Positions 1,547 through 12,033 of a stretch of DNA of 42,042 nucleotides are shown here, piece by piece. Source of the DNA: Bacteroidota bacterium (GTDB lineage Bacteria > Bacteroidota > Bacteroidia > NS11-12g > UBA9320); NCBI GenBank assembly GCA_013359235.1, contig JABWCE010000020.1:1-42042 (forward strand). Reading direction: 5' to 3'. A program made the translations under genes and the position numbers. The notes beneath the pieces were generated by a model. It saw nothing but the letters and a program-made list of their open reading frames with translations, was not told the DNA's origin and ran no database searches. The stretch's first letter is position 1; every line of letters begins with the position of its first letter.

Positions 1547-1897
1547 ATGGGTTCATCTGCTTTAATTATGTTACTTGTATGCGGAATAGGTTTTGCCGGT
1601 GCCGGTATTGTGATATCATTTATACTTGCAAAAACGTCAAAAAACGCTTTAAAAGGAGAACCTTACGAATGTGGAATAGAAACAACCGGTACATCGTGGA
1701 TACAATTTAATGTAGGATATTATTTATTTGCATTGATATTTTTGATTTTTGATGTTGAACTCGTATTTATGTATCCTTGGGCAGTAGCGGCAAAGCAAAT
1801 AGGTATAGTGGCACTTATCGAAATTATTTTTTTTATGTTTGTTTTATTTTTAGGCTTGCTTTACGCATGGAAAAAAGGAGCACTTGAATGGAAATAA
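1547..1897 (+). CDS. nuoA: Complex I subunit NuoA
   Basis: This is subunit A of the proton-pumping NADH-quinone-oxidoreductase-type complex, a small inner-membrane protein near the quinone-channel end of the membrane arm. Of its 116 residues, three stretches are membrane segments (about 6-28, 62-82 and 87-108). The family hallmark Y-E-C-G-I-E lies in the first loop. It begins the operon and overlaps nuoB by 10 bp, which implies coupled translation. Length is normal for the family. Confidence 0.95.
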
Positions 1898-2418
1898 TTG
1901 AAAAAAAAAATAAAGATTTAATATTTCCCGGGCAATTTCATCAAACTGAAAATGGGGGATTTCTCACTTCAAAATTAGATGATATAATAAACTGGGCACG
2001 CTCAAACTCGCTTTGGCCCTTGGTTTTTGGTACGAGTTGTTGTGCTATAGAAATGATGTCTGCCGCAGATGCCAAATACGATTGGTCACGTTTTGGCTTT
2101 GAAGTGGCAAGAGCCACGCCACGCCAAGCAGATTTGATAATTGTGGCGGGTACTATTGTTATGAAAATGGCTCCTGTTTTAAAAAGACTTTACGACCAAA
2201 TGCCCGACCCCAAATATGTTATTGCTATGGGTGCTTGTACTATTTCGGGGGGACCGTTTTTTTATAATACCTATTCAGTTGTAAAAGGAGTTGACCAAAT
2301 AATTCCGGTAGATGTATATGTTCCGGGATGCCCGCCACGTCCCGAAGCTTTGCTGCATTCTATGATTGCTCTTCAAAACAAAATAAAACACGAAACCTAT
2401 TTTAATAAAAAGAAATAG
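1888..2418 (+). CDS. nuoB: Complex I subunit NuoB (N2 iron-sulfur subunit)
   Basis: NuoB carries the terminal [4Fe-4S] cluster N2, which passes electrons to quinone at the junction of the peripheral and membrane arms. All four ligands are present: the tandem C51-C52 in [10 protein letters not shown]117 in GACTISGG, and C148 in VPGCPPRP. The 176-residue length is normal. The start overlaps nuoA, and the stop abuts the nuoC ATG directly. Confidence 0.96.
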
Positions 2419-2874
2419 ATGACAAACGAAGAACTTAAAACCCATCTTTTATCATTAATTCCTCAAGCAACTTTTGTAGAAACAGGTGAGTTTCTTGAAA
2501 TTTTCATTCATTCTGAAAATATTTTACCCTTAATGAAAAACCTAAAGGATGACGAAAAAACACAATTCGATTATTTGTTTTGCCTTACTTGTATTGATAG
2601 AATATCGAGTTTTGAGGTAGTATATCATCTGTTATCAAAAAACTATAAGCACATACTTGTTGTAAAATCAACAATTAGCAATATAGAAAACCCACAAACC
2701 GAAACTGTAAGCCATATATGGAAAACAGCCGAATTTCATGAACGAGAAGTTTATGATTTGTTTGGAGTAAAATTTATCAATCACCCCGATTTGAGAAGAA
2801 TTTTTCTTGAAGATGATTGGAAAGGTTTTCCGCTTCGCAAAAATTACAGCGACCCTAATATGATAGAATTATGA
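2419..2874 (+). CDS. nuoC: Complex I subunit NuoC
   Basis: NuoC is the 30-kDa-type subunit of the connecting module. The C-terminal signature is clear: ERE-x-YDLFG, then HPDLRRIF and DDW-x-G-x-PLRK. At 151 residues it is a compact form. It is a separate gene ending in an ATGA overlap with nuoD. Bacteroides and relatives are known for a fused nuoCD, so the split arrangement helps place the organism elsewhere in the phylum. Confidence 0.94.
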   Translation: MTNEELKTHLLSLIPQATFVETGEFLEIFIHSENILPLMKNLKDDEKTQFDYLFCLTCIDRISSFEVVYHLLSKNYKHILVVKSTISNIENPQTETVSHIWKTAEFHEREVYDLFGVKFINHPDLRRIFLEDDWKGFPLRKNYSDPNMIEL

Positions 2875-3995
2875 GAGGACTCATTGAAGAAGATTATACA
2901 ACACAAGAAGGCGAATTTGTTATAAATATTGGTCCGCAACACCCTTCAACACATGGTGTTTTGCATCTTAAAGTTTGGCTCAACGGAGAGACAATTATTA
3001 AAGTTCAACCACATCTTGGTTATATACATCGCTCAATTGAAAAAATGAGTGAAAGCCTTTCGTACCGCAATTTTATATTTGCAACAAGCCGTATGGATTA
3101 TCTTGCGGCTCATATAAACAACGAAGCCTGTGCACTTGCCGTTGAAAAAGGACTACAAATAGAAGCACCTCCAAGAGCAAGAGTTGTAAGAACTATACTT
3201 GCAGAACTTACACGGCTTTCGTCGCATCAGCTATGGTGGGCAAGTACAGGTCTTGACCTTGGGGCTGTAACCCCGTTTTTTTATGCTTTCAGAGAGCGTG
3301 AGGCAATTCTTGATATTATGGACGAAACCTGTGGGGCAAGATTAACTCAAAACTTTTTGGTTCCTGGAGGTTTAATGGCTGATATTCATCCAAATTTTCA
3401 AAAGAGAACAAAAGAAGTTTTAAAACAAATAAAAGAAAATTTCAAAGAATACGATGAATTGCTTACAGAAAATGTAATTTTTCAAAACCGCACAAAAAAT
3501 GTGGGTATTTTAAACAAGCAAGATGCACTTAGCTTTGGAGTAACCGGACCAACTGCACGAGCTTCAGGATTAAGTTGTGATATTAGAAAATGGGCTCCTT
3601 ACAGTGCATACTCAATGGTAGAATTTGACGAGATTTTAGACGAAGGATGCGATAGCTATTCGAGATATATGGTGAGAATGAAAGAAATGAGACAATCGGT
3701 AAATATTATTGAACAATTGATAGACAATATACCCGAAGGTGATTTTCAGGAGAAAACAAAAAATGTTATAAAACTGCCCAAAGGTGATTTTTATCAAAGA
3801 GTAGAAACCCCACGTGGCGAACTTGGAGTTTATATAGTAAGCGACGGGGCGAGCAGCCCATACAGAATTAAATACCGTTCACCAAATTTTTCAAATCTTT
3901 CGGTATTGCCCGAACTGGCAAAAGGATGCAAAATAGGAGATTTGGTAGCTATAATGTCAACCATTGATTTGGTTATACCCGATATAGACAGGTAA
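2871..3995 (+). CDS. nuoD: Complex I subunit NuoD (quinone-site subunit)
   Basis: NuoD is the 49-kDa-type subunit, related to the large subunit of NiFe hydrogenases, and forms the quinone-binding pocket with NuoB. The motif GPQHPSTHG near residue 22 supplies the quinone-site histidine. The stretch SRMDYL supplies the partner tyrosine. The 374-residue length is close to the family norm. The start is set by a 4-bp ATGA overlap with nuoC, and the nuoH ATG follows the stop after one base. Confidence 0.96.
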   Translation: MRGLIEEDYTTQEGEFVINIGPQHPSTHGVLHLKVWLNGETIIKVQPHLGYIHRSIEKMSESLSYRNFIFATSRMDYLAAHINNEACALAVEKGLQIEAPPRARVVRTILAELTRLSSHQLWWASTGLDLGAVTPFFYAFREREAILDIMDETCGARLTQNFLVPGGLMADIHPNFQKRTKEVLKQIKENFKEYDELLTENVIFQNRTKNVGILNKQDALSFGVTGPTARASGLSCDIRKWAPYSAYSMVEFDEILDEGCDSYSRYMVRMKEMRQSVNIIEQLIDNIPEGDFQEKTKNVIKLPKGDFYQRVETPRGELGVYIVSDGASSPYRIKYRSPNFSNLSVLPELAKGCKIGDLVAIMSTIDLVIPDIDR

Positions 3996-3996
3996 A

Positions 3997-5091
3997 ATGA
4001 ACAGAATATTTTTATATAGTTTTACAGAAATGGCATTGTATATTCACAAACTGCTCGAAAATGCAATTACAAATACAGTTCTGCTTCAAATAACCGAACT
4101 TGCAATAATTGGTGTAACTCTGTTGATTTCATTAGTAATTTTATGCTTTTTTCTGGGATGGATGGAACGCAGAGTTGCTGCATTTATGGAAATAAGATTG
4201 GGTCCTAACAGAGTAGGTCCACAAGGCACATTGCAAATAGTAGCCGATACCGTAAAACTACTTTTCAAAGAGGGTTTAACTCCCAACAAATCTGATAAAT
4301 TTCTTTTTAATTTAGCACCATTTATTGTTGTTACTGCTTCAATGCTTGCAATTGCACCATTGGCATTTGCAAAAAATTTCAGCATTTACGATATAAATAT
4401 TGGTGTTTTATATGTTTCATCGGTTTCATCATTAAGTGTTTTAGGAATTTTAATGGCAGGGTGGTCAAGCTACAACAAATATTCATTGCTCGGAGCAATG
4501 CGAAGCGGGGCACAAATTGTAAGCTACGAACTTTCTGTTGGTTTGTCGCTAATAGCAATTGTAGTACTTAGCGGAAATGTTAGCTTAGGTGAAATAATAA
4601 ACAGCCAGCAAAATGGATGGTGGATTTTTAAAGGACACATACCGGCAATAATAGCTTTTGTAATTTTTATTATTGCTTCAACTGCCGAGATAAATCGTGC
4701 TCCATTTGACCTTGCCGAAGCCGATCAAGAACTTACAGGTGGCTATAATACTGAATATTCAGGGATGAAATTTGCAATGTTTCTACTTGCAGAATACATT
4801 AACTTATTTATAGTATCGGCAATGGCAGCTACATTATTTTTAGGAGGATGGATGCCTTTTCATATTGGCGATTGGGAATCATTTAATAAAATAATGGATT
4901 ACATTCCATCATCAATATGGTTTATGGGTAAAACTTTTATCATAATATTTATAATAATGTGGTTCAGATGGACATTTCCACGACTAAGAATTGACCAATT
5001 GCTTAACTTAGAATGGAAATACCTTTTGCCAATAAGCATGGTAAATATAATAATTGTAACACTTATAGCTATTATGGGATGGCATTTTTAA
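3997..5091 (+). CDS. nuoH: Complex I subunit NuoH
   Basis: NuoH is the membrane subunit that carries part of the quinone tunnel and links it to the proton channels. It has about eight membrane segments in 364 residues. The family signatures ERR-x-AA-x-M-x-x-R-x-GPN-x-VGP and EINRAPFDL-x-E-x-E/D-x-ELTGG are present, the latter as EINRAPFDLAEADQELTGG. The chosen ATG lies one base after the nuoD stop. An internal ATG 11 codons later would also give a full membrane core, so the exact N-terminus is uncertain. Confidence 0.95.
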   Translation: MNRIFLYSFTEMALYIHKLLENAITNTVLLQITELAIIGVTLLISLVILCFFLGWMERRVAAFMEIRLGPNRVGPQGTLQIVADTVKLLFKEGLTPNKSDKFLFNLAPFIVVTASMLAIAPLAFAKNFSIYDINIGVLYVSSVSSLSVLGILMAGWSSYNKYSLLGAMRSGAQIVSYELSVGLSLIAIVVLSGNVSLGEIINSQQNGWWIFKGHIPAIIAFVIFIIASTAEINRAPFDLAEADQELTGGYNTEYSGMKFAMFLLAEYINLFIVSAMAATLFLGGWMPFHIGDWESFNKIMDYIPSSIWFMGKTFIIIFIIMWFRWTFPRLRIDQLLNLEWKYLLPISMVNIIIVTLIAIMGWHF

Positions 5092-5107: not shown

Positions 5108-5584
5108 ATGTTTCTGAAAAACTATATATTAACTGTTTACCGTTCGGTAAAATCTCTTCTAACGGGGATGAAAATAACAGGATATTATTTTTTTCATCCA
5201 AAAAAAATAGTAACTCAGGAATATCCCGATAACAGGGCAACTCTTCAAATGTTTGATAGATTTAAAGGCGAAGTAACTATGCCTCACAATCAAAATAACG
5301 AACATCGTTGCACAGGTTGCCAGGCTTGTGAAATTGCATGCCCAAACGGAACCATAAAAATTATTACAAAACAAGAGATTTTGCCTGATGGCAAAAAGAA
5401 AAAAAGGCTTGACACATTTGTTTATCATCATGATATGTGTACCTTGTGCAATATGTGTATAATTGCATGTCCTTCGGATGCAATAGTAATGGCTCAAACT
5501 TTTGAACACAGCGTTTACGACAAAAAACTGTTAAAAAAAGTACTCAATGCCGAAGGCTCAAAATTAATGGAGGGAGTAGAATAG
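5108..5584 (+). CDS. nuoI: Complex I subunit NuoI (2x[4Fe-4S])
   Basis: NuoI is the 8-iron ferredoxin-like subunit carrying clusters N6a and N6b, which conduct electrons to N2. Two complete CxxCxxCxxxCP motifs are visible: C68, C71, C74, C78 and C111, C114, C117, C121. The N-terminus has an amphipathic stretch that would lie on the membrane. The 158-residue length is normal. Because nuoE, nuoF and nuoG are missing from the operon, these are the outermost iron-sulfur clusters encoded here, so an unknown donor probably docks near this subunit. Confidence 0.95.
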   Translation: MFLKNYILTVYRSVKSLLTGMKITGYYFFHPKKIVTQEYPDNRATLQMFDRFKGEVTMPHNQNNEHRCTGCQACEIACPNGTIKIITKQEILPDGKKKKRLDTFVYHHDMCTLCNMCIIACPSDAIVMAQTFEHSVYDKKLLKKVLNAEGSKLMEGVE

Positions 5585-5597
5585 ATAATAAGTAAAA

Positions 5598-6104
5598 ATG
5601 GATATATCGGTAATTATATTTTACATAATCTCTGTAGTAATTACAGGCGGGGCTTTGCTTGCTGTTACTTCAAAGCAAATTTTCAGAGCAGCAGTTTATC
5701 TTATTTTTTCATTGCTGGGTGTAGCATCAATGTATTTTTATCTCGAAAACAATTTTATAGCTGCTGTTCAAATAGTGGTATATGTAGGCGGTATAGTGGT
5801 TTTAATTATATTTTCAATTTTTCTAACACAAAATTCGGGACATAGACTGAAAAAACCCGATGGCAAACGTGTATTTTTTTCGGCTCTATCAGTATTATCA
5901 GCACTTTTGCTCACATTGAATGTAATTGGAAATTACAATTTCAAATCAAATTCAAATAATACCATTGAACCTGAAATAAAAAATATTGGAATGCAAATGC
6001 TAAGCACTACACAGTACGGGTATTTGCTTCCATTTGAAGTTGTGAGTTTTTTGCTTTTGGCTGCTATGATTGGGTGTATTGTAATTGCATTAAAAAGAAA
6101 TTAA
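5598..6104 (+). CDS. nuoJ: Complex I subunit NuoJ
   Basis: NuoJ is a five-helix membrane subunit (168 residues) between NuoH and NuoK. The third helix holds the conserved Y-x-G-G-I-V-V-L region, where the family has a pi-bulge involved in coupling. It starts 13 nt after nuoI, and its stop abuts the nuoK ATG. Confidence 0.93.
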   Translation: MDISVIIFYIISVVITGGALLAVTSKQIFRAAVYLIFSLLGVASMYFYLENNFIAAVQIVVYVGGIVVLIIFSIFLTQNSGHRLKKPDGKRVFFSALSVLSALLLTLNVIGNYNFKSNSNNTIEPEIKNIGMQMLSTTQYGYLLPFEVVSFLLLAAMIGCIVIALKRN

Positions 6105-6419
6105 ATGAAAGTAATAGGGATAGAACATATTGTTTTTGTAAGTACAGTATTGTTTTTTATAGGTATTTATGGGTTTCTCACTCGTAGAAATATGATTACA
6201 ATGCTTATGTCAATAGAATTGATTTTGAATAGCGTGTGTTTAAATTTTGTTTCGTTTAACAAGTTTTTATATCACGATAAACTCGAAGGTGTTTTTTTTA
6301 CATTGTTCATAATTACAATAGCAGCCGCCGAAGCAGCCGTTGCCATTGCAATTATTATTAATCTTTATAGAAGTTATAAAACTATTGATATAGAAGAAGC
6401 CGATGAACTTAAATTTTAA
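6105..6419 (+). CDS. nuoK: Complex I subunit NuoK
   Basis: NuoK is a small three-helix subunit related to MrpC. Both membrane glutamates needed for proton transfer are present: E38 in MSIELILN (E. coli E36) and E76 in AAAEAAVA (E. coli E72). The length is 104 residues. It begins directly after the nuoJ stop. Confidence 0.95.
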   Translation: MKVIGIEHIVFVSTVLFFIGIYGFLTRRNMITMLMSIELILNSVCLNFVSFNKFLYHDKLEGVFFTLFIITIAAAEAAVAIAIIINLYRSYKTIDIEEADELKF

Positions 6420-6431
6420 TTGAAAACAATA

Positions 6432-8381
6432 ATGAATCAAGGCATAATTTTAAATATAATAAATTCAACATTCGGTTTATCAGCAATAATTTTTTTTCCT
6501 TTTCTCAGCTTTTTGATTCTGGGACTTAGCGGAATAAAAAGTTTTAAAAAATATGCAAGTTTTATCGGAATAATTTCAATACTTGCAACATTTATTCTTT
6601 CATCAATAGTTGCCCTTGAATACTTTTTTATTTCAGGCAAAACAGCCGATGGATTTGTAAAAATAACAGCTTTAAATTTTGAATGGCTTAAATTTTCTGA
6701 AAGTATATCATTAAATGTAGGGATATTGTTAGACCCAATTTCAGTAATGATGATATTGATTGTAAGTTTTATTTCGCTTATGGTTCATATTTTCAGCGCT
6801 GGTTATATGAAAGATGATAAGAGAATTAAAATTTATTATTCATTTTTATCACTATTTACATTTTCTATGCTCGGGCTTGTGGTTTCTACAAACATTTTTC
6901 AGATGTACATTTTTTGGGAACTTGTAGGTGTTTCATCATTTCTGCTAATAGGATACTACTATCAAAAGCCCGAAGCAGTTGCTGCTGCGAAAAAAGCTTT
7001 TATTGTTACTCGTTTTGCCGATTTGGGATTTTTAATAGGTATTTTGATAATTTCATATTACAGTCAAAGTCTTGATTTTGTAACTATAATTGAAAGATTA
7101 ACCGGTGAAAGCCAATATTTAAATAGCTCAGTTGCGGTTTCGTTTTTAGGCGTTTCAGCATTAACTTGGGCTTTAGTTTTGATTTTTATTGGTGGAGCAG
7201 GCAAATCGGCTATGTTTCCATTACACATTTGGTTACCCGATGCAATGGAAGGACCAACTCCGGTATCAGCTCTTATTCATGCAGCCACAATGGTGGTTGC
7301 CGGTGTTTTTCTTGTAGCCAGATTGTTTCCGGTATATTCATTGTCATGCCCAGCGGCATTAGATGTTGTAGCTTTTACGGGAGTATTTACTGCACTGTTT
7401 GCAGCGTTGATAGCTTGTACACAAACCGATATTAAAAGAGTATTAGCATACTCAACAATATCTCAAATTGGGTTTATGATTTTTTCTCTCGGCATTTCGG
7501 GCTATGGAGGTGAATCGGGCTTAGGGTATATGGCATCTATGTTTCATTTGTTTACCCATGCTATGTTCAAAGCCTTGTTGTTTTTGGGTGCCGGGGTAGT
7601 TATTCATTATATACACAGCAACGAGGTGAAAGATATGGGCGGCTTGAGAAAACAACTTCCTATTACAAATTTGTGTTTTCTTTTTGCTTGCCTGGCTATT
7701 TCAGGCATCCCTCCATTTTCTGGCTTTTTTAGCAAAGAAGAAATTCTTTTGGCGGCATGGAATTCTAATAAAACTGTATTTTTTATAGCTTTATTTACAG
7801 CATTTTTAACAGCCTTTTATATGTTCAGGTTGTATTTTTTAATTTTTTGGCATAATAAGCCAAGCAATTCAAAATCAAAAGCCGAAAGCCATTTTTCAAT
7901 GATTATTCCCTTGCTTGTTCTCGCTGTGTTAACAATAATAACAGGATTTGTACCTTTCGGAAATCTAATTACATCTGATGGAAAAATATTACATTCCCAT
8001 TTTCATTTTTCGTTTTCAATCATTCCAATTATAGTAGCCATAGCAGGTATAATGCTTTCGGCAATATTGTTTAAAACTAAAAGTAATAAAACTGAGAATT
8101 TGAATTTAGAAAACCTATTAAAACCTGTAAAAAACAAATTTTACATAGATGAAATTTATATTTTCATTACACGAAAACTCGTATTTTCACTTGTTGCAAA
8201 ACCCGCTGCGTGGTTTGACAAAAACATTATAGATGGCACTGTAAACTACAGTGGCGAACTGACGGGCAAAGTTTCAGAAAAAATAAAAACTTTGCATTCG
8301 GGCAAAACTCAAGGTTATGCACTTTGGTTTGTACTTGGGTTAATAATTTTAGTTTTAGTTTTTGCATATATTTTTTACTGA
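6432..8381 (+). CDS. nuoL: Complex I subunit NuoL (antiporter-like)
   Basis: NuoL is the distal antiporter-like pump subunit, with the long lateral helix that spans the membrane arm. The core motif GGAGKSAMFPLH is followed by WLPDAMEGPTPVSALIHAAT. The pumping lysine (E. coli K229) is K258 counted from the ATG at 6432. The protein is 649 residues with about 16 membrane segments and a final hydrophobic anchor after a loop rich in charged residues. A TTG at 6420, directly after the nuoK stop, would add four residues; ATG is preferred. It ends one base before the next small gene. Confidence 0.95.
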   Translation: MNQGIILNIINSTFGLSAIIFFPFLSFLILGLSGIKSFKKYASFIGIISILATFILSSIVALEYFFISGKTADGFVKITALNFEWLKFSESISLNVGILLDPISVMMILIVSFISLMVHIFSAGYMKDDKRIKIYYSFLSLFTFSMLGLVVSTNIFQMYIFWELVGVSSFLLIGYYYQKPEAVAAAKKAFIVTRFADLGFLIGILIISYYSQSLDFVTIIERLTGESQYLNSSVAVSFLGVSALTWALVLIFIGGAGKSAMFPLHIWLPDAMEGPTPVSALIHAATMVVAGVFLVARLFPVYSLSCPAALDVVAFTGVFTALFAALIACTQTDIKRVLAYSTISQIGFMIFSLGISGYGGESGLGYMASMFHLFTHAMFKALLFLGAGVVIHYIHSNEVKDMGGLRKQLPITNLCFLFACLAISGIPPFSGFFSKEEILLAAWNSNKTVFFIALFTAFLTAFYMFRLYFLIFWHNKPSNSKSKAESHFSMIIPLLVLAVLTIITGFVPFGNLITSDGKILHSHFHFSFSIIPIIVAIAGIMLSAILFKTKSNKTENLNLENLLKPVKNKFYIDEIYIFITRKLVFSLVAKPAAWFDKNIIDGTVNYSGELTGKVSEKIKTLHSGKTQGYALWFVLGLIILVLVFAYIFY

Positions 8382-8382
8382 T

Positions 8383-8763
8383 ATGAAAAAGAAAGAAATA
8401 GTTTTAAAATTGAATCAACTTATTACAGAAGTAGAAACAGCCGAAGATGAGCTTTGCCGTCCTTTTGAAGATGTGGTATCATTATCAGTTTGTCATAGGG
8501 TTAGAAATTCAATTTCAGAAATACTTAAATTATTTCTTGATTTTAAATCAATAAAATACAATGACAATGAAAATGTTGAACAACTGTACAACTTATGTGC
8601 CGAAAGAGATAAAGAGTTTAAAAACGTTGATATTTCTTCGGTTTACTGCAAATACGAAAATCATAATTCGCAAGTCAATCAATGTTCTGTTGGAGTTGGC
8701 GAAGTTGAAAACTGTACAAAAATTGCAAAGCAATTAATGGAATTAATTTTAAATAAAATATAA
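8383..8763 (+). CDS. Unknown Cys-containing soluble protein embedded in the nuo operon
   Basis: This gene encodes 126 residues from the ATG at 8383, one base after the nuoL stop; nuoM starts 11 nt after its end. An upstream start inside nuoL is less likely. There is no signal peptide or membrane segment. The predicted fold is mostly helical, with a distinctive stretch RPFEDVVSLSVCHRVRNSI and a later F-x-x-(V/I)-D-(I/L)-S-x-V-x-C. Six cysteines (25, 37, 72, 89, 101, 111) are present. The helical pattern with R-N-S-I resembles HEPN-type four-helix proteins, but I cannot assign a family with confidence. Its place between two antiporter subunits suggests a role in assembly, regulation or electron input to the EFG-less complex; that is inference. 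Confidence 0.8.
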   Translation: MKKKEIVLKLNQLITEVETAEDELCRPFEDVVSLSVCHRVRNSISEILKLFLDFKSIKYNDNENVEQLYNLCAERDKEFKNVDISSVYCKYENHNSQVNQCSVGVGEVENCTKIAKQLMELILNKI

Positions 8764-8774
8764 CAACAAAATAA

Positions 8775-10265
8775 ATGATTGATAAACTGTCATTATTAAT
8801 ATTGATACCGCTTTTCACGGCATTGTTAATGCTTTTTGCAAAAGACAAATTGCTGATTAAAAGAATTGCTTTGGCAGGTGCTGTATTGCAAATGTTTTAC
8901 AGCATATTATTAATTGTTTCTTTTATTAATTCTGAAAGAAGTTCGCAGTTTCTTTTTGTTAAATCAATATCGTGGTACAAAACTTTGAATATTGATTTTA
9001 TTTCAGGAATTGATGGAATTTCTGTTTCAATGATTTTACTCACTTCAATAGTTGTACTTGCCGGAGTTTTGGTTTCGTGGGATATAAATGAAAGAGTTAA
9101 AGATTACTTTTTGTTGCTCAGCTTGTTGAGCATAGGGGCTTATGGATTTTTTATATCACTTGATTTATTTGTAATGTTTTTCTTTCTCGAACTTGCTGTA
9201 ATACCCAAATATCTGCTAATAGCAATATGGGGAAGTGGGAAAAAAGAATACAGCGCTATGAAACTTGCACTTTTACTCATGACAGGTTCGGCATTAATTC
9301 TGATAGGAATATTACTTATTTATTTCAGATGCGAAACACAAACTTTCAATATTGTAAAATTGGCTGAGGTTGGCATTCCTGTTGAATTGCAAAGAATATC
9401 ATTTCCATTAATTTTTACAGGTTTTGGCATTTTTACTGCTCTGTTTCCATTTCATACTTGGGTGCCCGACGGGCACTCGTCAGCACCTACAGCAGCATCA
9501 ATGTTTCTTGCAGGTATTTCGATGAAACTCGGTGGGTACGGCTGCTTGCGGGCTGCTGCTTATCTTATGCCTCAAGCTACTGTTGAATATTCAAAAATTA
9601 TAGTTTTATTATCAGTAATTGCTATATTTTATGGGGCATTTGCTACATTAATGCAAAAAGATTTAAAATACATGAATGCTTATTCGTCAGTTAGTCATTG
9701 CGGCTTTATACTGCTCGGAATAGGTATGCTAAACCATACATCAATAAACGGAGCGGTAATTCAAATGATTTCTCACGGCTTGATGACTGCACTTTTCTTT
9801 GCTTCAATCGGCATGATATACAAACGAACTCATACGAGAAAAATTGATGAACTTGGCGGTATAATAAAATCTATGCCTTTCATTGGTTCTACCTTTATTA
9901 TTGCAGGCTTGTGTTCTCTTGGATTACCTGGTTTTAGCGGATTTGTAGCCGAAATGACAATTTTCATAGGTGCCTGGCAAAACGAAGGGATGTTTTACAA
10001 GGTTTCAACAATTATTGCATGTGCCTCAATTGTAATTACTGCTGTTTACATACTAAGAGCATCAGCAAAAGCAATAACAGGTAAAGTTGCCAAAGAAGAA
10101 TTTGAAAACTTAAAAGATGCTGATTTTAATGAAAAATCGGCTTCGGTTTTACTTATTATTGCAATATTGTTAATTGGGTTTACTCCTTTTTTACTAATAA
10201 ATTTAATAAATCAAGATACATTTATAATTTCAGAAAATTTTTTTAAAATAATCACTTCAAAATAA
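8775..10265 (+). CDS. nuoM: Complex I subunit NuoM (antiporter-like), pumping lysine replaced
   Basis: NuoM is the middle antiporter-like subunit, 496 residues with about 14 membrane segments. The helix-5 glutamate is E139 in FFLELAVIPKYLL (E. coli E144). The helix-8 lysine is K251 in LAGISMKLGGYG (E. coli K265). At the position of the helix-7 lysine (E. coli K234) the sequence reads GFGIFTALFPFHTW, so F220 replaces it, with the 31-residue spacing to K251 intact. NuoL and NuoN in the same operon keep their lysines. Subunit identity is secure; whether this channel still pumps by the usual route is an open point. nuoN follows after 4 nt. Confidence 0.94.
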   Translation: MIDKLSLLILIPLFTALLMLFAKDKLLIKRIALAGAVLQMFYSILLIVSFINSERSSQFLFVKSISWYKTLNIDFISGIDGISVSMILLTSIVVLAGVLVSWDINERVKDYFLLLSLLSIGAYGFFISLDLFVMFFFLELAVIPKYLLIAIWGSGKKEYSAMKLALLLMTGSALILIGILLIYFRCETQTFNIVKLAEVGIPVELQRISFPLIFTGFGIFTALFPFHTWVPDGHSSAPTAASMFLAGISMKLGGYGCLRAAAYLMPQATVEYSKIIVLLSVIAIFYGAFATLMQKDLKYMNAYSSVSHCGFILLGIGMLNHTSINGAVIQMISHGLMTALFFASIGMIYKRTHTRKIDELGGIIKSMPFIGSTFIIAGLCSLGLPGFSGFVAEMTIFIGAWQNEGMFYKVSTIIACASIVITAVYILRASAKAITGKVAKEEFENLKDADFNEKSASVLLIIAILLIGFTPFLLINLINQDTFIISENFFKIITSK

Positions 10266-10269
10266 TAGT

Positions 10270-11685
10270 ATGACTTTAGATTTTTTCAGATTAATGTATC
10301 CCGAATTAAGTTTAATACTGATAATTTTCACATTGCTAATAATTAAAATTTTTGATTTGTTTAAGCAAAACCAAAGCCTTATTTCATTTTTTAATGCAAT
10401 TTTTAATTTTTATTTTGCTTCACTTTTGTTTAGCATTAATATTAATTCGGGTGAACTCTTTAACGGGATGTATATTTCAAGTTCAAAATTCGCATTCGAA
10501 AAATTAATTTTAACATCTGGAACATTACTTATTTTGCTCAACTCGGCAGTTTGGCTCAAAAATCATAAACATTTGCCAGAGTTTTATCTTCTGTTGGTTT
10601 CTTCGCTGTTAGGAATGCAATACATGATATCATCAGGTAATTTTCTAATGTTTTATCTGGGTCTTGAACTTGCATCAATACCACTTGCAGCTCTTGTAAA
10701 TTTTGATTTAGAAAAGAAAAAATCTTCTGAAGCTGCCATGAAAATGATTCTACTTTCAGCTTTTGCTTCGGGTATTATGCTTTTTGGAATTTCACTTATT
10801 TATGGTACAAGCGGAAGTTTGGATTTTGATATATTACAAACTTCAATAAATGCTAATAAACTGAACATTATTGCATTGATATTTATTTTCTCGGGTTTTG
10901 CATTTAAAATTTCGGCTGTGCCATTTCATTTCTGGACAGCCGATGTATATGAAGGTGCTCCTTTTGCTATTACCGCATTTCTATCAACAATTTCAAAAGC
11001 AGTAATAGTATTTGTTTTTATTTCTGTTTTAAGCCCAATCTTTAATAATTTGCAATTTTTGTGGTCTAATTTGCTTTTAATAATAATACCCCTTACAATT
11101 TTTATCGCAAATATTTTTGCATTAAGACAAAGGAATATAAAGAGGTTTATTGCTTTTTCTTCTATTGCACAAGCAGGGTATATTTTGCTCGGTTTGTCAT
11201 CAAACAATGGTTTGGGTTTTGCTTCATCAATATTTTTTGTAATTATTTATTTGCTTTCTAATATTGGATTTTTTGCAGTAGTATCGGCAGTTTCTGATAG
11301 CATGGGTAAAGAAGAAATTGATGATTACAAAGGCTTTTATAAAAACAATAAAAAACTTAGCTGGGCATTGGCAATATCGCTGTTTTCGCTTGCAGGCATA
11401 CCTCCTACTGCCGGTTTTTTTGGAAAAATTTTTTTAATAACAGCAGGAGCAGCTACAAACCACATTTTGCTTATTGCGTTTGTTGCATTAAATATGGTTA
11501 TTTCGCTGTTTTATTATTTGAATATAGTAAAAAAAGTATTTGTTGATAGTAGCCAAGCACCTCTTGCCGATGTTAAAACAGGTTTATCAGCCAAAGTATC
11601 ATTAATTATTTGTTTAGCAGGGATAATAATTATTGGTTTAAATGGTGCATTGTTAGAATATATAACAAAACTCATTAATTTATAA
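10270..11685 (+). CDS. nuoN: Complex I subunit NuoN (antiporter-like)
   Basis: NuoN is the proximal antiporter-like subunit, 471 residues with about 14 membrane segments. The glutamate of helix 5 is in YLGLELASIPL. The pumping lysine is K213 in GFAFKISAVPFHFW (E. coli K217), followed by T-x-D-V-Y-E-G-A-P. It lies between nuoM and a second small unknown gene 9 nt downstream. Confidence 0.94.
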   Translation: MTLDFFRLMYPELSLILIIFTLLIIKIFDLFKQNQSLISFFNAIFNFYFASLLFSININSGELFNGMYISSSKFAFEKLILTSGTLLILLNSAVWLKNHKHLPEFYLLLVSSLLGMQYMISSGNFLMFYLGLELASIPLAALVNFDLEKKKSSEAAMKMILLSAFASGIMLFGISLIYGTSGSLDFDILQTSINANKLNIIALIFIFSGFAFKISAVPFHFWTADVYEGAPFAITAFLSTISKAVIVFVFISVLSPIFNNLQFLWSNLLLIIIPLTIFIANIFALRQRNIKRFIAFSSIAQAGYILLGLSSNNGLGFASSIFFVIIYLLSNIGFFAVVSAVSDSMGKEEIDDYKGFYKNNKKLSWALAISLFSLAGIPPTAGFFGKIFLITAGAATNHILLIAFVALNMVISLFYYLNIVKKVFVDSSQAPLADVKTGLSAKVSLIICLAGIIIIGLNGALLEYITKLINL

Positions 11686-11694
11686 ATTGATAAA

Positions 11695-12033
11695 ATGGCT
11701 TTAAATCAAAATCACATTTTCGAAGATATTGATGAAATTAAATGTTCGATAGTTGAAAAGAATTGTACGAAACAAAGATGCGACTTTTTAAAAGCATTAT
11801 TAGAGCATAACAATTACAAAGTAGTAATAAAAAATACTACAAATGCTGCAAATGAAAGCATTACTGAAACAATAGCAGAAACATATACAATTGGAGTAAC
11901 AGATGTAACTTTCAATTATATCAAGGCAATATTTAACCGCGAACTCAAAGCACAAAATGGCAACACGGTTACACCTGATTATTGGAAGCAGATAAATGCT
12001 GAATCTGACGATAAAAAATGGTATTGGAAGTAA
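11695..12033 (+). CDS. Unknown small protein at the end of the nuo operon
   Basis: This gene encodes 112 residues and starts 9 nt after nuoN, so it is very likely co-transcribed. There is no signal peptide or membrane segment. The N-terminal half looks like a beta-alpha-beta unit, IKCSIVEKN followed by a charged helix RCDFLKALLEHNNYKVVIKN. A low-complexity Asn/Thr/Glu linker separates it from GVTDVTFNYIKAIFNRELK and an aromatic tail, YWKQ and WYW. I recognise no named family. By position it may be an accessory factor of the complex or simply travel with it. Confidence 0.72.
   Translation: MALNQNHIFEDIDEIKCSIVEKNCTKQRCDFLKALLEHNNYKVVIKNTTNAANESITETIAETYTIGVTDVTFNYIKAIFNRELKAQNGNTVTPDYWKQINAESDDKKWYWK

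Follow-up and report, generated by a model that had tools for sequence, protein, structure and literature searches.

A predicted catalytically dead HEPN-fold protein encoded between nuoL and nuoM keeps company with PFOR and ferredoxin-oxidising ion pumps in Bacteroidota

The window analysed here, a 42,042-nt stretch of a Bacteroidota genome (contig JABWCE010000020.1, positions 1 to 42,042, forward strand), carries inside its complex I operon a gene for a 126-aa protein with six cysteines, encoded at 8383-8763 on the + strand, which we call P. Across the window's class, the constant partner of P is a pyruvate:ferredoxin oxidoreductase (PFOR) accompanied by a ferredoxin-oxidising pump, either the 11-subunit Nuo complex or Rnf, rather than the nuo operon alone. 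As judged by family profiles and a predicted structure, P is a HEPN-fold protein of the PF05168 clade, and the residues that characterise its presumably active relatives are missing from its family. A functional link of P to the PFOR-ferredoxin-pump route is very probable; given such a link, the chances that P acts as an adaptor or at the point of electron entry are about even.

The host operon has the order nuoA-B-C-D-H-I-J-K-L-[P]-M-N-orf112 and lacks nuoE, nuoF and nuoG, thus encoding an 11-subunit complex I. Its features are the following.

1547..1897, + strand, nuoA (operon order conserved)
1888..2418, + strand, nuoB (operon order conserved)
2419..2874, + strand, nuoC (operon order conserved)
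2871..3995, + strand, nuoD (operon order conserved)
3997..5091, + strand, nuoH, directly after nuoD, with nuoE, nuoF and nuoG absent (operon order conserved)
5108..5584, + strand, nuoI (operon order conserved)
5598..6104, + strand, nuoJ (operon order conserved)
6105..6419, + strand, nuoK (operon order conserved)
6420..8381, + strand, nuoL (NCBIfam NF005141 and TIGR01974 over cut-off)
8383..8763, + strand, P, HEPN-fold protein, predicted to be catalytically dead (126 aa, six Cys)
8775..10265, + strand, nuoM (NCBIfam TIGR01972 over cut-off)
10270..11685, + strand, nuoN (operon order conserved)
11695..12033, + strand, orf112, conserved, family not assigned, found after nuoN in most class operons (operon comparison)

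P opens with an ATG and has its cysteines at C25, C37, C72, C89, C101 and C111. The nuoL stop codon ends at 8381, leaving a 1-nt gap before P, and the nuoM ATG at 8775 leaves an 11-nt gap after it, which confirms the soluble six-cysteine gene and the tight spacing described in an earlier reading of the sequence alone (hereafter, the sequence-only reading). A run of 126 open codons has a chance of ~4e-6 at the local base composition, six cysteines are unusual when compared with the neighbouring proteins (p ~0.004), and dN/dS between P and its nearest relative is ~0.39/1.89 = 0.21. The open length, the cysteine content and this ratio together argue that P is a real, selected gene, the ratio itself indicating that purifying selection acts on it. 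The placement of P inside the pump-subunit block is unusual, as had been proposed from the sequence: among the 73 operons with this nuoL type, P lies between nuoL and nuoM in 14, and the rest mostly have ~0-20 nt between these two genes. The 14 arrangements are those of the window, of two other species of its genus (G001 and G006) and of eleven more class genomes. A single origin of this position is not supported, at least 4-6 changes being required on a quick nuoL tree. The idea of P as a standard component of all 11-subunit operons is rejected, since 46 of the 73 genomes have no detectable copy. P matches none of the known complex I subunit families in NCBIfam and Pfam, and the eleven core subunits are encoded by the other genes of the operon. 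The genome of the window also holds a second nuo operon (locus L096, on contig G000:C9) with nuoE/F/G-like genes and a nuoL ~42% identical to that of the window; P is absent from it. As for orf112 (~112 aa), it follows nuoN in 50 of the 64 operons checked and represents a second, more widespread companion of the 11-subunit complex I, with no match in Pfam or NCBIfam.

The sequence of P by itself returned nothing significant in Pfam, NCBIfam or PDB searches, and its HEPN ancestry surfaced only through a family profile, which was seeded from the homologues in the window's genus (L002 and L003) and a distant one from the window's taxonomic family (L004). A search of 395 class genomes with this profile matched 38 genomes. 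The weakest matches are mostly classical HEPN proteins adjoining MNT nucleotidyltransferases, all of them PF05168, and after leaving out these MNT-linked HEPNs we count the P family in 30 of the 395 genomes. When the 35-member P family was compared with the MNT-linked HEPNs (all PF05168) by hhalign, the comparison, which spans the full length, scored 98.9% with an E-value of 2e-17, and 15 of the 35 members match PF05168 individually, the best at 5.5e-7. An AlphaFold model of P, built from a 7-row input alignment, reached a pLDDT of 83.4 and a pTM of 0.78. HEPN domains rank first among the PDB structures matching this model, with Z up to 11.8, and account for most rows with Z>=8; for helical bundles, a Z below ~13 may be no more than middling, and HEPN chains nevertheless prevail among the best matches. 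Searching PDB sequences with the family profile gave no match. The HEPN-like helical fold, offered at first as a weak guess, therefore turned out to be right on the strength of the profile-profile comparison, the PF05168 matches, the AlphaFold model and the PDB structure matches, the profile and structure-prediction check that had been suggested for it leading to a HEPN helical bundle. However, Rx4-6H, the catalytic motif that HEPN RNase toxins have at the end of helix 3, is not conserved in the P family: a few members have stray chance matches at differing positions, and P itself has none. Likewise, the family does not have the K-x-H and R-Y-P residues seen in its MNT-linked relatives, and no MNT nucleotidyltransferase gene lies beside its members, whereas one is present beside the MNT-linked relatives. 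Since Rx4-6H, K-x-H and R-Y-P are all missing, RNase activity is not expected of P. PADLOC gave no consistent match, and no P family member was found in the viral contigs scanned.

A PFOR gene directly adjoins P in 14 other genomes of the class. The adjoining PFORs are NifJ proteins of 1,176-1,191 aa, a split form (L091) or a larger form of 1,547-1,637 aa, and P directly precedes the large form both in a member of the window's own family (G028) and in the public loci L049-L052, which include Cecembia rubra and Marinoscillum pacificum. One of these genomes (G166) has two copies of P, one beside NifJ and the other closing a PFOR-RnfCDGEA-like operon, and the remaining two class genomes (G202 and G233) carry P without a visible PFOR neighbour, one of them at a contig edge, with NifJ encoded elsewhere in both. 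A PFOR-RnfCDGEA-like operon with P as its last gene occurs at locus L078; its PFOR-like gene encodes 1,266 aa, and the POR_N match there is both weak and shortened.

The same partnership is seen when gene content is considered over the 395 class genomes, 73 of which have this nuoL type and 59 have NifJ (scored by its EKR domain). P is present in 26 of the 48 genomes with both complex I and NifJ, in 1/25 with the complex alone, in 0/11 with NifJ alone and in 3/311 with neither; the Fisher p values for the first group are 1e-5 against the complex alone and 1.3e-3 against NifJ alone, statistics that are weakened by kinship among the genomes. Four P carriers are without NifJ, and in all four a large PFOR adjoins P, so that all 30 carriers in the class encode a PFOR. 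This complex I is found in 27 of the 30, and the remaining three have Rnf, another ferredoxin-oxidising pump; all the carriers known to be without the complex (G028, G232, G444 and G462) have a true RnfC over the curated cut-off. Within the window's genus, the complex, NifJ and P occur together in three genomes (G000, G001 and G006), and none of the three is found in G002-G005. On the nuoL tree, the association between P and NifJ is one-directional, with few independent contrasts, ~3-4 in the same direction and 0 in the opposite one (p 0.125). P is not essential to the PFOR-ferredoxin-pump route, since it was not detected in 22 of the 48 genomes that combine NifJ with the complex.

Outside the window's class, two families of another class of the phylum (f90 and f109) have P right after nuoN. 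In five genomes (G647, G800, G666, G534 and G704) the genes form a one-strand cluster, nuo...nuoN-P-Rrf2-NifJ-DHOD-like-ferredoxin-like-KorA(-KorB), in which DHOD-like stands for dihydroorotate-dehydrogenase-like and KorB is seen where the stretch reaches that far; the NifJ of this cluster is TIGR02176, and the domains of the cluster were confirmed for G534. In G803, NifJ-DHOD-like-ferredoxin-KorAB precede nuoA. The nuo operons of these two families are ~30-59% identical to that of the window and are also without nuoE/F/G. Rrf2-family regulator genes were observed between P and NifJ in L180, L182, L183 and L187, two of them being Pfam-confirmed in L183. The neighbourhoods in the two classes show that P recurs with the same partners at differing positions, so that in two classes of the phylum gene order connects PFOR, ferredoxin and pump through the P family. 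The sequence-only reading had suggested a link to the complex from the retention of P in its tight spot and had asked whether synteny with nuoL and nuoM is conserved; it is, in 14 genomes whose operons are without nuoEFG, and with the second class and the complex I of most class carriers added, the link is upheld. We looked for homologues scattered without any nuo association, and this is not the pattern observed.

Two kinds of cysteines can be told apart in P by the alignments.

8491..8493, + strand, codon of C37, common with true MNT-linked HEPNs, in the ACFHCQQ motif region (alignment)
8596..8598, + strand, codon of C72, common with true MNT-linked HEPNs (alignment)
8647..8715, + strand, conserved three-Cys motif C-x(8-21)-C-x(6-9)-C, from the codon of C89 through C101 to that of C111 (family alignment)

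The three-Cys motif is kept in nuo-linked and NifJ-linked P members of both classes, and it is lost only in seven members, all of which adjoin a PFOR of ~1,635 aa. The six PFORs of this size that were read all end in the same single-cluster 4Fe-4S ferredoxin-like domain, and PF13370 was found at the C-terminal end of all three that were scanned by Pfam; of the PFORs beside Cys-bearing P members, 0/5 sampled have a C-terminal ferredoxin-like domain. This correlation, which is one of small numbers, hints that the job of the Cys site is ferredoxin-related, and the trio could instead be structural or zinc-binding. We dropped the idea that the motif marks a complex I-linked form, as L072 and L078, which are linked to Rnf genomes, also carry it. 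The ~1,635-aa PFOR-like protein with the ferredoxin-like tail occurs at L071, L049, L050, L052, L075 and L093; RnfC follows it where the stretch is long enough, and in L071 RnfD does so too.

The data show the fold, by prediction and profiles, the loss of catalytic residues, the gene order in two classes and the co-occurrence; that P would touch its partners, bind a metal or pass on electrons is inference. Because every class carrier has PFOR and, where checked, a ferredoxin-driven pump, P may help hand electrons to the pump. We favour, with confidence that is evenly balanced, a dead HEPN without MNT that has been domesticated as an accessory of the PFOR-ferredoxin-pump route, a docking or electron-entry adaptor being its most likely form. 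Without its RNase active site and no longer paired with an MNT antitoxin, an ancestral HEPN would have become a small soluble accessory protein; the route it serves would lead from pyruvate through PFOR and ferredoxin to a membrane ion pump, the 11-subunit complex I or, in other lineages, Rnf. P might then stand in for the absent NuoEFG module, as an adaptor through which PFOR, or the ferredoxin of PFOR, docks on the stripped complex I or feeds it electrons. The C89/C101/C111 trio would in that case either provide a metal or Fe-S site or act as a clamp that responds to redox state. The most specific version, in which the dead toxin is the electron-input adaptor of the NuoEFG-less complex I (of Rnf elsewhere) and has a Cys site that serves as relay or gate for electrons from PFOR or ferredoxin, a site dispensable and lost where PFOR has a ferredoxin tail, is speculative, and we hold it to be rather improbable in full.

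Several other roles would fit parts of these data. P may be an assembly or maturation factor for PFOR and for the Q-module of complex I, aiding their assembly or the insertion of Fe-S clusters while staying outside the electron path. A small soluble protein with a conserved Cys trio, encoded in operons of Fe-S-rich enzymes and adjoined by Rrf2-type regulators in another class, would suit such a function, and a dispensable helper could well be missing, as P is, from numerous genomes that have the two enzymes. However, the nuoEFG-keeping nuo operon of the same genome has no P, and loss of the trio is confined to members whose adjoining PFOR brings its own C-terminal ferredoxin domain, which general maturation would not predict; we regard this role as possible, though we lean against it. 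Alternatively, P could be a HEPN derivative sensing redox state or oxygen, which binds PFOR, or the mRNA of PFOR, and inactivates or protects it upon over-reduced ferredoxin or oxygen entry. The constancy of PFOR as partner in all carriers even when the pump differs, the compatibility of HEPN ancestry with RNA or protein binding, and the nearby Rrf2 regulators are in agreement with such a regulator or protector, but P lies within the pump-subunit block of 14 genomes and behind nuoN in others, which suggests co-production with the complex, and we consider this role unlikely.

The remaining two explanations take the toxin ancestry of P more literally. Its relatives are MNT-HEPN toxin-antitoxin proteins and its presence is patchy, as would be the case for a functionless relic, an inactivated toxin gene hitchhiking in these operons; yet purifying selection, the conservation of residues across two classes and the repeated occurrence of the same partners at several different positions make this very unlikely. 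An active HepT-like RNase toxin with its antitoxin encoded elsewhere shares the HEPN fold with P, but the missing Rx4-6H motif, the lost K-x-H and R-Y-P residues and the lack of an adjoining MNT gene render it scarcely credible. The domesticated adaptor would make P a case of a toxin fold taken into energy metabolism.

P can be compared with several known systems. NdhS, the ferredoxin-delivering subunit of complex I, is an SH3-like, all-beta protein. By description, the job proposed for P is the same as that of an NdhS-type subunit, namely supplying a NuoEFG-less complex I with electrons from ferredoxin, but the folds would differ, P being a predicted helical HEPN. The MNT-linked HEPN-T/PF05168 proteins (HepT-like toxins) share with P the full-length fold, its size and the cysteines C37 and C72; however, they have an MNT partner, K-x-H and R-Y-P, whereas P is without these and without Rx4-6H, and adjoins PFOR, Nuo11 or Rnf instead. 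The nearest described relative of P is probably the HEPN-T (Cpin_6617) family, a motif-less family with ferredoxin-domain-dyad fusions in Bacteroidetes and Nitrospirae (Anantharaman et al. 2013, PMC3710099, Table 1). Both are HEPN-T-like without Rx4-6H, a likeness drawn by description; some Cpin_6617 members are fused, while the P family members are stand-alone, with frames of <=210 aa and no ferredoxin fusion. A text search of PMC3710099 found no mention of pyruvate or nuo, and a literature search for HEPN and PFOR named together gave one paper, with a single mention of each. As for the complex itself, the electron donor of the 11-subunit complex I in Bacteroides fragilis is drawn as unknown in the part of PMC7002350 consulted, and for that of Desulfitobacterium hafniense, the part of PMC11238625 consulted proposes PFOR and ferredoxin as donors and reports that no shared donor protein came to light when one was sought. 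According to these portions of the two papers, both complexes resemble that of the window in being without NuoEFG and in having an unknown donor; an extra P-like gene is mentioned for neither in the same portions, and most operons of the window's class are also without P. P is thus a named candidate for the donor question of complex I without NuoEFG, and an electron-entry role, if true, would solve the problem of the missing donor of the 11-subunit complex I in a way specific to this clade.
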